Assembly: GCF_000179555.1 (NCBI RefSeq)
Contig: NZ_AECZ01000019.1
Location: 1-64,000, forward strand
DNA from: Solidesulfovibrio fructosivorans JJ]
Lineage (GTDB): Bacteria; Desulfobacterota; Desulfovibrionia; Desulfovibrionales; Desulfovibrionaceae
Reading direction: 5' to 3'
DNA length: 64,000 nt
Below are positions 4,274 to 50,262 of this stretch, in pieces; position 1 is the first letter of the stretch; every line of letters begins with the position of its first letter. Below the pieces are notes generated by a model, which was given only the letters and a program-made list of their open reading frames with translations, was not told the DNA's origin and did no database searches. Both the position numbers and the translations under genes were made by a program.

Positions 4274-4786
4274 TCAGGCCTCCGCGTTTTCCGGGGTTGC
4301 CTCGCCGAGACTCTGGGCCAGCCCGGCCAGTTCCAGGGAAGTGAAAACCTTGTTGATGTCGAGGATGATGATGAACTTCTCGCCGGACTTGCCGATGCCC
4401 CGGATGAATTCCCCCCGAATCGGCGTGCCCATGCGCGGAGCCGGCTCGATCTGCCCGGCTTCCATCTCGTAGACTTCCTGGACCGAGTCGGCCAGGGCCC
4501 CGAGCACCGTGGACTCGCCTTCGAGGGCCACCTCGACGATGATGATGCAGGTGTTGACCGTGCGCTCGGTGGCGCCCATGCCGAACTTGAGCTTGAGGTC
4601 CACCACCGGCACGGCACGGCCGCGCAGGTTGATCACGCCGCGGATGTACTCCGGGGTGCGCGGCACGCGGGTGATGTTGACCAGCTCCAGAACCTCGCGC
4701 ACCGAGCTTATGTCCAGGGCGAAAAGCTCGCGTTCCAGGGTGAAGGTGAGGTATTGGTTGTCATTTGCGCTTGCGGCCTCGGCCAT
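4274..4786 (-). CDS. cheW: Chemotaxis coupling protein CheW
   Basis: CheW couples receptors to CheA through tandem SH3-like barrels. The frame is open further upstream. I chose the ATG at 4786 because it follows GGGAGGAAAAT, the best ribosome-binding site in the area, and gives a 170-residue protein of normal CheW size (MAEAASANDNQ start). Family features include FALDISSVREVL, RVPRTPEYIRGVINLRGRAVPVVDL and an IGKSGEKFIIILDINKV-like end. A longer start at 4927 would run into the end of cheA and is unlikely. The gene lies 79 bp after cheA and 5 bp before cheR. Confidence 0.95.
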   Translation of the reverse strand: MAEAASANDNQYLTFTLERELFALDISSVREVLELVNITRVPRTPEYIRGVINLRGRAVPVVDLKLKFGMGATERTVNTCIIIVEVALEGESTVLGALADSVQEVYEMEAGQIEPAPRMGTPIRGEFIRGIGKSGEKFIIILDINKVFTSLELAGLAQSLGEATPENAEA

Positions 4787-4865
4787 ATTTTCCTCCCTCA
4801 GCGGGCGACGTTCGTGACGCGTCCCTTGAAAAACAGGCCCGCCCGCGCGGTGGGCGGCCGTCCGG

Positions 4866-6992
4866 TCAGGCAGCGGCGACACGGCGGATGCCGCCGGATT
4901 CGCCCCGTCGCACCAAAGCTGACACATCCAGAATCAAGGCCATGCGGCCGTCGCCCCGGATGGTTGCCCCGGAAAATTCCCCGATGTCGCGGTACAACGG
5001 CCCCAGGCTTTTGATGACGGTCTGGTGTTCCCCGATCACCCGGTCCACGGCCAGCCCGACTCTGGACCCGTCGACGGCCACGACAACGATGGGTTCGATG
5101 GTCGGCGACGTCCCTTCGATGGCGAACAGGTCGCGCAGGCGCAGGCAGGGCACGACTTCGCCGCGCATGTTGAGCATCCCAGCCTCGCCGTCGTCATCGG
5201 GCTTGCGCGCCATCTCGAGGCACTCCTCGACCTGGGCCAGGGGCAAGACATAGTATTCCGCGCCCACCTGCACCTGCAAACCGTCGATGATGGCGAGCGT
5301 CAGGGGCAGCCGTACGGTGATGACGGTGCCCCGGCCCGGCTCGGAGTCGATCTCCACAACGCCGCGAAGCGTTTCGATGGCCCGTTTGACCACGTCCATG
5401 CCCACGCCCCGGCCGGAAATGTTGGTGACGGACTTGGCCGTGGAGAAACCGGGCAGGAAAATGAGGTTGTAAAGCTCCTTTTCGGTCATCTCCAGGCCGG
5501 GAGGAATAAGCCCCCGTTCCTCGGCCCGGGTGCGGATGGCCGAGGCATCGAGTCCGGCCCCGTCATCGGCCACGGTGATGACCACTTCGCCGCCGGCATG
5601 GGCCGCGCCAAGGCGGATGACGCCTGCCGCGGGCTTTCCCGCCGCCTCCCGGGCCTCGGGCGATTCGATGCCGTGGTCGATGCTGTTGCGCAGGAGATGG
5701 ACCAGCGGATCGCCCAAGCGCTCGATAACCGTCTTGTCGAGTTCGGTCTCCTCGCCCGTGGTCACAAGCTCGATCTCCTTGCCGAGCTCGGCGGTCAGGT
5801 CGCGTACCAGACGGCGGAATTTGCCAAAGGTGGCCCCGATGGGCAGCATACGGATGGACAGGGTGGAATCGCGCAGACTGTCGCCGAGGCGTTCCAGATG
5901 CTCGGCAAGGGAACGCAGCAGCGGATCGCCCCGCTCCTCCACGGCTTGCTTGATCTGGGCCTGAACGATGACCAGCTCGCCCACGAGGTCGACCAGGGAG
6001 TCGAGCTTGTCAGCGGCGACCCGGATGCTCGAAGCCTTCTCGGAACGCTCGTGAGCCTTGCCGGCCAGCTCGCGCACGGCGGCCTGTTCGGACAGCGCCG
6101 AAGCCACCTGCCCGTTGCTGACGACGCCCTTGTCCTTGAGGATGTCGCCCAGGCGACGCTGGGTGGCCAGAGCCTCGGCCAGATCCTCGGGGGTGATGTC
6201 GCCACGGGAAATCAGGATGTCGCCCAGGCGGCAATGGACCTGCTCCCCGTTCACGGCGCAGCCGTCGTCAAGGACTTCCACGGAAAGGTCGCAGTCGTCC
6301 TCGGCGAACACGAACACATCGGTCAGGGCCGCCGCATCGGCCGTTGTGCGGATGACGCAGTCCCACCAGGTCAGACAGGCCTCGGGGTCCAGGGCGTCGA
6401 GGGGCTCCACATCATCGATATGGGCATACAGGCGGCAATCGCCCAGCGCGATGACGTCCTCGAGCAGATGCAGGGGGTTGTTTCCCGAGGCCAGCATGCC
6501 GGGCTGGGGACGGAAGCGCAGCCGGAAAATGCGCATCACCTCGGCGGCGGGCGTCTGCGGGGCGGGCTCGGCCTGGGCAGCGGGGGCCCCTTTGGCCGCC
6601 TCACCGCCAAAGGCGCGAAACCCCTCGAGGATATCCCGCCCGTCCGCCTCCCGGGCCGCAAGGTCCTCCTCGTCGGGAGAAAGCAGGCTCTTGATGTGGT
6701 CGCAGGCGCGCAGCGAAAGGTCGAGCAGCCTCCCGTCGACCGCCAGCAGGCCGTTTCGGACGCGGTCGAAGACCGATTCCACATCGTGGGTGAAGGCGGC
6801 GATATCATCGAAGCCGAACATGGCCCCGGAGCCCTTGATGGTGTGCAGGGCGCGGAAAATCTTGTGAAGCAGATCGGCGTCGTCCGGGGTGCGCTCGAGT
6901 TCCAGCAGCGACGCTTCGAGATCGGCGAGCAGATCCCGAGCTTCTTCCAGGTACGCGGCGCGGTGGGCGTCTTCCTGCGTGTTCATGGACAA
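4866..6992 (-). CDS. cheA: Chemotaxis histidine kinase CheA with an inserted tandem RLG motif
   Basis: CheA autophosphorylates in response to receptor state and passes phosphate to CheY and CheB. The 708-residue protein has an N-terminal HPt domain with phospho-His at about residue 50 (ALHTIKGSG). A variable region follows at about 150-250. Dimerisation helices begin near 323, then come the HATPase (N box LLRNSIDHG, DDGAGLD, GRGVGMD) and a C-terminal CheW-like domain. Residues 255-278 and 280-303 are two copies of a 24-residue RLGDIL...G...AL..Q motif resembling the MshEN nucleotide-binding repeat; this is reported separately. The gene is 33 bp or more downstream of the MCP-like gene and heads the cheWRB set. 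Confidence 0.97.
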   Translation of the reverse strand: MSMNTQEDAHRAAYLEEARDLLADLEASLLELERTPDDADLLHKIFRALHTIKGSGAMFGFDDIAAFTHDVESVFDRVRNGLLAVDGRLLDLSLRACDHIKSLLSPDEEDLAAREADGRDILEGFRAFGGEAAKGAPAAQAEPAPQTPAAEVMRIFRLRFRPQPGMLASGNNPLHLLEDVIALGDCRLYAHIDDVEPLDALDPEACLTWWDCVIRTTADAAALTDVFVFAEDDCDLSVEVLDDGCAVNGEQVHCRLGDILISRGDITPEDLAEALATQRRLGDILKDKGVVSNGQVASALSEQAAVRELAGKAHERSEKASSIRVAADKLDSLVDLVGELVIVQAQIKQAVEERGDPLLRSLAEHLERLGDSLRDSTLSIRMLPIGATFGKFRRLVRDLTAELGKEIELVTTGEETELDKTVIERLGDPLVHLLRNSIDHGIESPEAREAAGKPAAGVIRLGAAHAGGEVVITVADDGAGLDASAIRTRAEERGLIPPGLEMTEKELYNLIFLPGFSTAKSVTNISGRGVGMDVVKRAIETLRGVVEIDSEPGRGTVITVRLPLTLAIIDGLQVQVGAEYYVLPLAQVEECLEMARKPDDDGEAGMLNMRGEVVPCLRLRDLFAIEGTSPTIEPIVVVAVDGSRVGLAVDRVIGEHQTVIKSLGPLYRDIGEFSGATIRGDGRMALILDVSALVRRGESGGIRRVAAA
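6084..6230 (-). other. Tandem MshEN-like motif within CheA
   Basis: CheA residues 255-278 and 280-303 each follow the pattern RLGxxL....G.......(L/V)xxxLxxQ, with one residue between copies. The same pattern defines the c-di-GMP-binding MshEN domain of type II secretion and pilus ATPases. Here the first copy has Asp, and the second copy Lys, at positions that are usually hydrophobic. Binding is an inference from the pattern only. It may equally be a fixed structural repeat of delta-proteobacterial CheA proteins. Confidence 0.55.
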
Positions 6993-44793: not shown

Positions 44794-46547
44794 TTTGTAA
44801 ATTCAACCTCCACAGCGGATTTTTGCATGTCGCCGCCGTCATGCATCATAGCCAAAAACGCCTTTGCGCACATCGGGCAAAACTGCCGCCCAGCTTCTTC
44901 CTCAATGATGCCGAGCGCCTTGGCAAGCGGCATTCCCCTTCTGTAGGGCCGGTCCGTGGTCATGGCGTCAAAGGCGTCGGCAATGGCGATGATGCGCGCG
45001 CCCAGGGGAATGTCCTCGCCCATGATGGCCGTGGGATAGCCATGCCCGTCCCAGCGCTCGTGGTGCAGGAGAATAAGCGGCAGCACCGGAGTCAGGGAGA
45101 CGATGGGACGCAGGATTTCCGCGCCGATAATGGCGTGCTCCTGGATCTTGGCGTATTCCTCGGGGGTGAGCTTGCCGGGCTTTAGGAGCACGGCGTCGCG
45201 CACGCCGATCTTGCCGATGTCATGAAGATTGGCCGCGATCTCCAGTTCCCGCAGATCCCTATCGCCAAGCTCCATGGCCCGGCCCAGGCGCATGGCCATG
45301 CGCGAAACCCGGGCGGTATGGCCCTTGGTGTATTCGTCGCGCGCCTCGAGGGCCGTAATGAGGGCCGACATGCTGGCCAGGACGTGCTCGTGCTCTTTCT
45401 TGATGTGCCGATAGCTCTCGGTCAGCAACTGCTCCACCACGAGCTGCATTTTCTCGACATCGAAGGGTTTGACGAAATAACGCGAGATGCCCAGGCGTTC
45501 GCCGCGAAGGATATCGCTTTGCCGGTCGCGACCGCTCATCATCACGACCAGGGTGTTGCGCAAATCCGGCTCGTCCCGCAGCTTCTCGCACAGCGTATAG
45601 CCGTCCATCTCCGGCATCTCGATATCGGTCACCACCACGTCGGGCAGATGCTCCTTGGCCAGCTCGAGGGCGCTTTTGCCGTTCTCGGCGGTCAGCACGC
45701 AATGCCCGCCCTTGATAAAGCTGTGGCGCAACAGCTCCCGGATAAGCTTGTTGTCGTCGGCGACCAGAATCTTATTGTGGCGTTTGCGCTCGACCAGGTC
45801 GAGATGCTCCGACACCTTGGCCGCCAGCATCTCCGGGGTGAAGGCCTTGAGCAGATAGTCGTCGGCCCCGCAGTTAAACGCCGTATCCATGTCCAGGCTG
45901 CTGTCGCTGCTGGAAAGAATGATGACCGGCAGATAGCGCCCCGGGTTGTCCTCCTTGATCCGGCGGCATAAATCGAGACCGGACAGTCCCGGCAACAGCA
46001 CGCTCGTAAGCACCAGCTCGAAGTCGTGCTTGCGGCAGAAGGCCAGGGCCTGCTCGGCGTTGTGGGCGGCCACCACGCGAAAACCGGCCGGGGTGAGCGC
46101 CGCGCGCACCACGTGGAGCAGCGTCTTGCCGGCGTCCACGAAAAGGATGGAACGGCGCGACGAGACGCTTTGCCGCGGCTTTTCCTGAATCTCCCGCAGC
46201 ACGTCGGTCAGGTTTATACGGTTGACGGGATAGATGTCCTGACCGGGGGGAAGGGGCACGGCGACATCATCCTCGCTGCCGGCGTCGAAGGGGCGCAGGC
46301 AAAGGATGGGAATGATTTTTCCCGCCGCGTTGGCCGTCTCCCGAATACGCTCGATCAACGCGACGCTGTCGCAATTGATGTAGGAGTCCTGGATCAGGAC
46401 GGCATCGGGCGTGGGATCGCCCAAGGCCTGGGAAACCTCGCCGTCCTCCGGAAAGGCGAAAACATAGTCGATGCCGGCCGTCAGATAAAGCTTGGACAGG
46501 AAGGCCCGATAAAAGACGATGTCGATGATATTTATGACGCGCATCAA
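44790..46547 (-). CDS. Response regulator with three receiver-like domains and HD-GYP
   Basis: HD-GYP domains usually degrade cyclic di-GMP. The 585-residue protein has an N-terminal receiver-like domain (about 1-110), a second (about 130-250) whose expected phosphoacceptor Asp reads Ser in LVLTSVLLPGLSG, and a third canonical receiver (about 258-375, ADDN and VVVTDIEMPEMDG). A C-terminal HD-GYP domain shows LHDIGKIGV and HHERWDGHGYP. The second receiver should not be phosphorylated. It is upstream of xthA, overlapping by 4 bp. Confidence 0.92.
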   Translation of the reverse strand: MMRVINIIDIVFYRAFLSKLYLTAGIDYVFAFPEDGEVSQALGDPTPDAVLIQDSYINCDSVALIERIRETANAAGKIIPILCLRPFDAGSEDDVAVPLPPGQDIYPVNRINLTDVLREIQEKPRQSVSSRRSILFVDAGKTLLHVVRAALTPAGFRVVAAHNAEQALAFCRKHDFELVLTSVLLPGLSGLDLCRRIKEDNPGRYLPVIILSSSDSSLDMDTAFNCGADDYLLKAFTPEMLAAKVSEHLDLVERKRHNKILVADDNKLIRELLRHSFIKGGHCVLTAENGKSALELAKEHLPDVVVTDIEMPEMDGYTLCEKLRDEPDLRNTLVVMMSGRDRQSDILRGERLGISRYFVKPFDVEKMQLVVEQLLTESYRHIKKEHEHVLASMSALITALEARDEYTKGHTARVSRMAMRLGRAMELGDRDLRELEIAANLHDIGKIGVRDAVLLKPGKLTPEEYAKIQEHAIIGAEILRPIVSLTPVLPLILLHHERWDGHGYPTAIMGEDIPLGARIIAIADAFDAMTTDRPYRRGMPLAKALGIIEEEAGRQFCPMCAKAFLAMMHDGGDMQKSAVEVEFTK

Positions 46548-48891: not shown

Positions 48892-50262
48892 CTAAAACCG
48901 AAAATCGCCACGCTCGAAGAGCGAGAGGCAGGCGTCGACCACGTCGGCGTCATAGAGGCGGCCCCGGCCTTTCGCCAGTTCGGCCAGCGCGTGCTCAAGG
49001 CTCCAGGCGGAACGGTAGGGCCGGTGGGCGGTCATGGCCTCGACCACGTCGGCCACGGCCAGGATGCGCGACCCGGGGTGCATGTCCTCGCGCCTGAGCC
49101 CGGCCGGGTAGCCGGAACCGTCGCACCGCTCATGGTGTTCGAGCACCATGCGGGCCAGGGGCCAGGGGAAAGGGACATCCTTCAGGATGTCGAAGCCGAC
49201 GGTGCTGTGGTCCCGCACAATGCCCATTTCCATGGCGGAAAGCGCCTCGGGCTTGGTCAGGATTTCCGAAGGCACATGGATCTTGCCAATATCGTGGACC
49301 AGCCCGGCCATGCGCACGCCTTCCCGCTCCTCGTCGGAGAACCCGAGGGCCTTGGCCAAGGCCTCGGCCAGCCGGGACACGCGTTCCTGGTGGCCGGCGG
49401 TGAAGGGGTCGCGCGTTTCCGATGTCACGGTCAAAGCGTTGACGGTTTCCGTAAGCGCCAGGCGCAGGCCGGCCACGGAATCCCGAAGCGCCCGCTCCAC
49501 ATCCCGGCGGCGGCTGATGTCCCGAAAGACGAGTACCGTTCCGAGCGCCCGCCCCCTGTCGTCCAAAATGGACGACAGGGTCTGCTCCACGGGCAAGCGG
49601 CTCCCGTCCTCCCGGCACAAGATCGCCACTTCCCGAGCGCCCTCCAGCCCGTCGGGGATATCGCCTTGCTCGGGGTCCCGAAGCGTCTTGTAAAGCGTCG
49701 CCAAGTCACGGCCGAGCAGACGCGCTGCCGACACTCCAAGCAGCGTTTCGGCCATGGGGTTGGCGAAGCGCACCAACCCCTGGGGATCGGCGGTGATCAC
49801 CCCTTCCCCAAGATAGTGCAGGGTCATGGCCGTCCACTGTTCGTTATCGCGCAGTCGCCGCTCCATCCGGGACTTGTACAGGGCGATGTCCAGGGTCGTG
49901 GTCAGGTCCCGGTTCTCGAAGGGCTTGGTGATGTAGCCGTAAGGACCGGCCGCGCCGGCGCGCCGCAGAGTTTCCGGATCGGCGTGGGCGGTGAGAAAAA
50001 CCACCGGCACGGCCAACTCGTCGCGGATGCGCCCGGCCGCGTCCACCCCGTCCAGGGCGCCGTCCAGCACGATGTCCATGAGCACGATGTCGGGAGAGAG
50101 ATCCCGGGCCAGGCGCAAGGCATCCTCGCCACGGTCCGTCGGGCCGCAGACGGCATAGCCGAGCTGGGAGAGGCGTCTGGCCAGATCCAAGGCCACCACT
50201 CCCTCGTCCTCGACGATGAGCACGCGCGGGTTTTCGGGGGATGTCGCCGCTTCCTCAGGCAT
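48892..50262 (-). CDS. Response regulator with PAS and HD-GYP domains
   Basis: This 456-residue protein has an N-terminal receiver (VLIVEDEG and VLMDIVLDG phosphoacceptor, with Lys in YITKPFEN), a PAS domain at about residues 140-260 (ADPQGLVRFANPMAETLLGV), and a C-terminal HD-GYP domain (VHDIGKIHVPSEIL, EHHERCDGSGYPAG). It likely degrades cyclic di-GMP in response to a histidine kinase. It overlaps the 3' end of the epimerase gene by 8 bp. Reading frame and length are normal. Confidence 0.94.
   Translation of the reverse strand: MPEEAATSPENPRVLIVEDEGVVALDLARRLSQLGYAVCGPTDRGEDALRLARDLSPDIVLMDIVLDGALDGVDAAGRIRDELAVPVVFLTAHADPETLRRAGAAGPYGYITKPFENRDLTTTLDIALYKSRMERRLRDNEQWTAMTLHYLGEGVITADPQGLVRFANPMAETLLGVSAARLLGRDLATLYKTLRDPEQGDIPDGLEGAREVAILCREDGSRLPVEQTLSSILDDRGRALGTVLVFRDISRRRDVERALRDSVAGLRLALTETVNALTVTSETRDPFTAGHQERVSRLAEALAKALGFSDEEREGVRMAGLVHDIGKIHVPSEILTKPEALSAMEMGIVRDHSTVGFDILKDVPFPWPLARMVLEHHERCDGSGYPAGLRREDMHPGSRILAVADVVEAMTAHRPYRSAWSLEHALAELAKGRGRLYDADVVDACLSLFERGDFRF

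Follow-up and report, generated by a model that had tools for sequence, protein, structure and literature searches.

Does the chemotaxis kinase CheA of Solidesulfovibrio fructosivorans JJ carry a receptor module for cyclic di-GMP (c-di-GMP), and of what kind? The question is raised by a stretch of 64,000 nucleotides (the window), in which a tandem repeat stands between the variable region and the kinase core of CheA. An earlier note, made from the letters of the window, had read the repeat as MshEN-like and had proposed that it couples the kinase to c-di-GMP or, having lost ligand binding, serves as a structural element of delta-proteobacterial CheA. The repeat was found where that note had placed it, at 6084-6230 on the minus strand (residues 255-303), with two 24-residue MshEN-type motifs and a single residue between them, 49 residues in total; the NCBIfam model, the profile comparison and the shuffled controls described below agree on it.

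Position of the repeat in CheA

The protein is a CheA by its domain content, with Hpt, H-kinase_dim, HATPase_c and CheW in this order and each above its Pfam cut-off (Table 1). Its frame starts with TTG at 6992, with an alternative ATG two codons on at 6986, and its neighbours encode an MCP-signal protein, CheW, CheR and CheB. The longest cheW frame (4277-4927, minus strand) overlaps the end of cheA, and an internal ATG at 4786 (MAEAASANDNQ...) is its likelier start. The Pfam P2 domain had no match in the CheA protein. The model of the P2-like region superposed on P2 of Thermotoga CheA (1u0s_A; VIA Z 7.4, 2.5 A over 73 residues), a score with which unrelated rows tied, and the P3 model superposed on Thermotoga CheA 1b3q_A (VIA Z 9.1, 1.3 A over 61 residues).

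Table 1. Features of cheA in the window (positions count from the first letter of the window, residues from the start of CheA)
Feature	Position	Strand	Remarks
cheA coding frame	4869-6992	-	708 aa; Pfam domains; stop codon 4866-4868
P1 (Hpt), residues 12-95	6708-6959	-	Pfam PF01627, 60 bits
P2-like domain, residues ~155-245	6258-6530	-	AF2: alternating strands and helices
MshEN-type motif I, residues 255-278, RLGDILISRGDITPEDLAEALATQ	6159-6230	-	NF053729 match
One-residue spacer, R279	6156-6158	-	canonical MshEN: 5 residues
MshEN-type motif II, residues 280-303, RLGDILKDKGVVSNGQVASALSEQ	6084-6155	-	second helix runs on towards P3 in models
Variable junction, residues 304-320	6033-6083	-	highest pN/pS (0.655) among seven regions compared
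P3 dimerisation helices, residues 321-377	5862-6032	-	Pfam PF02895
P4 ATP-binding domain, residues 428-565	5298-5711	-	Pfam PF02518
P5 CheW-like domain, residues 571-696	4905-5282	-	Pfam PF01584

Homology to MshEN_N

The profile comparison that the earlier note had proposed bears out its reading. The NCBIfam model NF053729 (c-di-GMP_motif, MshE-related; cut-off 38 bits) scored 50.8 bits on the whole protein and 57.4 bits on the segment alone, returned 6084-6230 at 56.8 bits when run against the whole genome, and matched all 81 aligned CheA elements at E<=1e-3. When a 72-residue stretch of CheA was searched with phmmer against all PDB sequences, 13 of the 14 matches at E<=10 were MshEN-type pilus or secretion ATPases (PilF 8e-13, MshE (5htl) 2.6e-4, PilB 0.007), the only other being a ribosomal protein at E 1.4; the profile of the CheA-element family gave 2.3e-29 for PilF, 5e-11 for PilB and 7e-10 for MshE. 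Alignment of the profile of 70 CheA elements to that of 12 MshEN_N domains from this and related genomes (hhalign) gave a probability of 98.7 and an E-value of 3.2e-16, with all 49 columns aligned and a four-column gap exactly at the spacer, and its score of 70.2 compares with 6.3-16.5 in 30 column-permuted controls. The strict half-motif arose in 2 of 5000 shuffles of CheA and the strict tandem of period 25 in none, while a much looser pattern found the half-motif in 2238 and the tandem in 4 of 5000. Homology of the CheA element to MshEN_N is thus close to certain on sequence grounds. That its helices repeat by chance or convergence, with no kinship to MshEN, is very improbable: the missing match to Pfam PF05157 and the weak hits of single elements in Pfam families of unrelated helical proteins (at E<=1, FumaraseC_C for 44 of the 81) would favour this, yet the former model cannot test it, as explained next, and the NCBIfam model, PDB sequence searches, profile comparison, shuffles and permuted controls all speak against it.

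The Pfam MshEN model PF05157 (gathering cut-off 23.1) had no match in CheA at E<=10. As it models the part that follows the tandem motifs, a part of which CheA shows no counterpart, its silence here is not evidence, and we dropped it as a test of MshEN_N membership. In a glycosyltransferase of this genome (locus L161, on G000:C33), NF053729 covers residues 491-543 and PF05157 residues 545-625; the two are placed likewise at G000:C30 and G000:C33 of the same genome, and in the MshEN loci no proper tandem lay in or around the PF05157 matches, the tandems being found further upstream. Counts of MshEN domains based on Pfam can consequently miss proteins that, like this CheA, have MshEN_N only.

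A second family, DUF4388 (PF14332; gathering cut-off 25), overlaps motif I weakly in the window (6144-6251, minus strand), where it stays below its cut-off with 22.6 bits on the segment and 14.7 bits on the whole protein. At E<=1 it matched 74 of the 81 elements from CheA, the lowest E-value being 2.2e-6, and the C-terminal copies of the L161 glycosyltransferase reached 29.3 bits, above the family cut-off. As these copies match DUF4388 and CheA motif I is weakly similar to it, DUF4388 may share the half-motif.

Spread among CheA proteins

To the window's CheA we added its 4 paralogues from the same genome, 29 CheA from related genomes and 80 from GTDB contigs (80 of at least 519 relatives), giving 114 proteins picked by similarity to the window CheA; the kinase core is identical within two pairs of them (L043/L020 and L044/L018), and L010 and L013 were left out as copies of the window. 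The tandem is present in 81 of the 114, among the matches listed, by a pattern that makes no hydrophobic demand at position 7; with that demand the count is 61 of 114 and the window CheA itself is excluded. The other 33 were inspected by eye, with a half copy seen in 1 and none recognised in 32, and many CheA without the element have Pro/Ala-rich linkers. The four other CheA of this genome are without it, and an element-profile search of the genome gave no second CheA copy.

By record title, the carriers include Nitrospira, Desulfoluna, Paramagnetospirillum, Telmatospirillum, Nitrospirillum, Methylovorus, Methylophilus, Bordetella, Seleniivibrio and spirochaetes, and many are metagenome-assembled genomes. 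The named records span several phyla and include alpha-, beta- and gammaproteobacteria; many of the non-carriers are alphaproteobacteria whose linkers look Pro/Ala-rich by eye. The label delta-proteobacterial was therefore too narrow, given Nitrospira, Seleniivibrio and spirochaetes among the titles. Within the window's own phylum, the element profile found matches at E<=1e-10 in 42 of 59 genomes. A second CheA set was drawn by this profile and covers loci L170-L198, a part of all matches; these 29 loci comprise 24 CheA with a kinase core and 5 other proteins.

Length of the spacer

MshEN has been defined by two 24-residue motifs, RLGxx(LVI)(LVI)xxG(LVI)(LVI)xxxxLxxxLxxQ, in tandem, with a spacer of 5 residues and 53 residues overall in the canonical form, as given in the part of Wang et al. 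2016 (PMC5013675) cited here. The CheA spacer is four residues shorter than in MshE, and as it has 1 residue in place of 5, we class the element as an MshEN variant and not as a canonical MshEN domain. The same spacer recurs in 74 of the 81 tandems of the first CheA set, among the matches listed, the others having 0 residues (1 protein) or 6-10 (6 proteins). In the second set (n=24) the spacer has 1 residue in 8, 2 in 4, 3 in 1, 4 in 1, 6 in 2, 7 in 7 and 10 in 1, so that within the phylum the window's value is the commonest and not the sole one. Over both sets, again among the matches listed, spacer 1 occurs in 82 of 105 and spacer 5 in none. By comparison, 13 of 34 MshEN loci from this and related genomes had tandems readable by the motif pattern used, 12 with spacer 5 and one with spacer 4; the five non-CheA loci of the phylum set have spacer 5 too, four by script and L193 by eye.

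On a tree of kinase cores, the split between short (<=4) and long (>=6) spacers needs 2 changes, and presence versus absence of the element needs at least 10; the tree was a quick one without mixture model, holds 136 of 138 CheA (two short ones dropped) and gave long-branch warnings. Set against the turnover of the element itself, the spacer class looks stable. The MshEN-type copies borne by CheA thus look, from their sequences, to form spacer classes of their own.

Ligand-contact residues

We compared the motif positions that contact the ligand in MshEN across the CheA elements. In the window, 11 of the 12 carry the strict consensus residue (R255, L256, G257, L271, L275 and Q278 in motif I; R280, L281, G282, L300 and Q303 in motif II), the sole departure being V296 in place of leucine. 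Of the 74 spacer-1 copies, 11 have this number and none exceeds it; among the 13 MshEN domains that could be read in this and related genomes, one has 8 strict contacts, 11 have 9 and one has 11. When K, L or P is allowed at position 1 and L, I or V at the hydrophobic contacts, 60 of the 74 copies keep all 12. The earlier note had remarked that several hydrophobic positions differ and had suggested degeneration. The remark holds for two core positions with polar residues, position 7 of copy II (K286) and position 11 of copy I (D265), and fails for the contacts, where V296 alone departs; with the contacts nearly strict here and largely kept across the family, degeneration argued from the hydrophobic positions is a weak case. 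The short spacer, a larger departure than these residues, is together with the fold search reported below the better reason for doubt.

Among 42 non-redundant spacer-1 elements, mean entropy in motifs I and II was 0.98 and 0.81 at contact positions, 1.16 and 1.47 at core positions and 2.20 and 2.14 elsewhere, conservation that is partly built in because elements were detected only with G3 and with a hydrophobic residue at each of positions 2, 6, 17 and 21. What is informative is accordingly the choice of letter within each class, along with position 1 and Q24. It is Q24 that stands out, being kept in 38 of 42 (motif I) and 42 of 42 (motif II), although R, K, H, N or E would have passed the pattern there as well. 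Across 13 congeneric cheA genes, pN/pS was 0.365 in the element, 0.405 in P2, 0.655 in the adjoining junction and 0.182 in P3.

At position 1, proline is common among the CheA elements. Thermus thermophilus PilF offers a comparison here, since some motif copies in its GSPII-A, -B and -C subdomains begin with K, L or P, as in the CheA family (parts of PMC11731258 and PMC12002112). GSPII-B, a tight c-di-GMP binder, has K and L at position 1, and GSPII-C, with P there in 1 of its 3 motifs, binds as well, so that according to the same portion of PMC11731258 tight binding is possible without arginine at this position. GSPII-A does not bind, even when its full consensus was restored and its other structural features stayed; by the part of PMC12002112 cited here, consensus motifs alone are insufficient for c-di-GMP binding. 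XpsE, a non-binder, has lost G11, R38, G40 and Q61 among others, and isolated MshEN_N binds c-di-GMP without MshEN_C (both from the cited part of PMC5013675). PilF differs from the CheA element in that its copies stand at the N-terminus of an ATPase, are accompanied by C-terminal GSPII subdomains and have longer spacers (alignments to 6f8l).

Predicted structure

In the structure prediction that had been proposed, AF2 modelled the element alone as four helices, two per motif (model residues 11-17, 23-32, 36-42 and 48-70), with block-mean pLDDT of 96-98 over model residues 11-60. A model of residues 140-385 (mean pLDDT 80.5) placed the P2-like domain, the four element helices and the P3 helices in one chain, the fourth element helix being part of a long helix towards P3. 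Foldseek with the element model against PDB returned 27 matches at E<=10, none below 0.001 and no MshEN entry, in a search that had no MshEN positive control; the best row was MltA at E 1.8, and of 39 chains compared by VIA one was kept, at Z 2.2. The fold search with the model spanning P2, element and P3 returned P2-like and P3 rows and was uninformative on the element. Set beside the clear kinship in sequence, the Foldseek result (without positive control) hints that the hairpins of the CheA element may be packed otherwise than those of MshEN_N. The part of Wang et al. 2016 (PMC5013675) cited here describes the alpha2 helix of c-di-GMP-bound MshE as two turns longer than that of the non-binder XpsE, and the shorter alpha2-alpha3 connection predicted for CheA goes the opposite way, which by analogy would count against binding.

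Cyclic di-GMP context and other MshEN-type proteins

The earlier note had drawn on two HD-GYP proteins of the window as degraders of the ligand. Both are present (HD_5 domains at 44880-45362 and 48940-49416, minus strand); they lie about 38 to 43 kb from the element, and with totals of 18 HD_5 and 32 GGDEF matches in the genome no specific link to CheA can be drawn from them, so we rejected this route as unspecific.

Two further proteins of the genome carry MshEN-type copies. A 404-residue frame (L164:838-2049, minus strand; G000:C2, about 156361-156687) has four copies when read from an internal methionine (LGRFLVEQG, IGEMAVDRG, FGDIAVEER and LGEALLLRG), one pair of which exceeds the NF053729 cut-off. 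The rest of this protein had no Pfam match at E<=0.01, which includes the CheX-type domain that we considered for it. The L161 glycosyltransferase (L161:841-3129, minus strand; G000:C33:9275-10054) scores 699 bits against NF012033 (cut-off 537 bits), and its C-terminus has a spacer-5 MshEN pair and further copies, one of them above the NF053729 cut-off. It belongs beside the NfrB-type glycosyltransferases activated by c-di-GMP (NF008411, NF012033), to whose MshEN part the secondary matches of the CheA element correspond; unlike CheA, these are glycosyltransferases, and in the example of this genome at G000:C33 the first pair has spacer 5.

Discussion

Among known systems the closest is the MshEN_N subdomain of MshE (VC0405, PDB 5HTL; part of PMC5013675), a c-di-GMP-binding four-helix subdomain that shares with the CheA element the tandem RLG..L...G......L...L..Q, the 24-residue motifs and, by prediction, the four helices. 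The element differs in its spacer, in standing inside CheA without an MshEN_C and in finding no Foldseek fold match. The association itself is already in print: Wang et al. 2016 name CheA-MshEN and CheX-MshEN associations and refer for them to Supplementary Table 4; the main text, in the part cited here, says nothing of the length of the spacer or the place of the repeat in CheA and describes no binding experiment with it. In what our literature search covered, only PMC5013675 links MshEN to CheA, and neither a binding assay on a CheA copy nor a description of short-spacer elements as a class was found. What is new here is this class and its spread. The element is widespread and, it seems, an uncharacterised variant of the MshEN receptor module in a chemotaxis kinase.

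Judged from its sequence, the element is most likely a module that senses c-di-GMP, or once did so, where P2 joins P3. Whether it still binds a cyclic dinucleotide is finely balanced, with the contact residues for binding and the spacer and fold search against, and we put the chance a little short of even. Polar K286 and D265, the frequent proline at position 1 and the fact that 4 of the 5 CheA encoded here and 32 of all 114 in the comparison (among the matches listed) do without the element also count against it. The reading that we tentatively prefer, at nearly even chances, is that a short-spacer MshEN_N repeat in the P2-P3 linker binds c-di-GMP and tunes CheA output. In this mechanism the last helix of the repeat would continue towards the P3 dimerisation helices, and c-di-GMP or a close cyclic dinucleotide would be held through the conserved R/L-G and L...L..Q positions. 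Binding would alter the stiffness or orientation of the linker and, with it, the reach of P1 and P2 to the kinase core, and c-di-GMP would thereby tune the output of CheA.

A structural remnant is a serious possibility, though less likely than not. By this account the element is a helical spacer derived from MshEN_N that binds no nucleotide and only determines how long and how stiff the linker between P2 and P3 is. The short spacer, the Foldseek search (without positive control), the absence of the element from 32 of the 114 CheA, many with linkers that look Pro/Ala-rich by eye, and the at least 10 changes between presence and absence on the quick kinase-core tree speak for it. Against it, the residues that contact ligand are the most conserved, above all Q24, for which a pure spacer has no obvious need, and the tandem has been retained in several phyla.

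Less likely, indeed unlikely, is a docking site for a protein such as a receptor, CheW or a polar landmark protein. It has a precedent in the 'landing pad' proposed for the non-binding GSPII-A of PilF (part of PMC12002112), and the element does adjoin P3; on the other hand, the residues under the strongest conservation are those that contact ligand in MshEN. Still more doubtful is an arrangement in trans, in which the short spacer stops the two hairpins of a chain from closing on each other and the c-di-GMP pocket is made up by motif I of one subunit and motif II of its partner beside P3; c-di-GMP would then tie together the two subunits of a CheA dimer, or one dimer of the array and the next. 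Such a receptor geometry is not described for MshEN domains in the literature examined.

For the module as a putative sensor of c-di-GMP, the present analysis establishes homology, conservation, position and spread; ligand binding and an effect on the kinase are what we infer. Should the element bind c-di-GMP, a messenger on which the decision between swimming and biofilm depends would act directly on the chemotaxis kinase, and would do so in several phyla. Should it not, CheA would be a clear natural example of over-prediction, the MshEN signature and a curated NCBI model both pointing to a c-di-GMP receptor where there is none, a point of importance for annotation.
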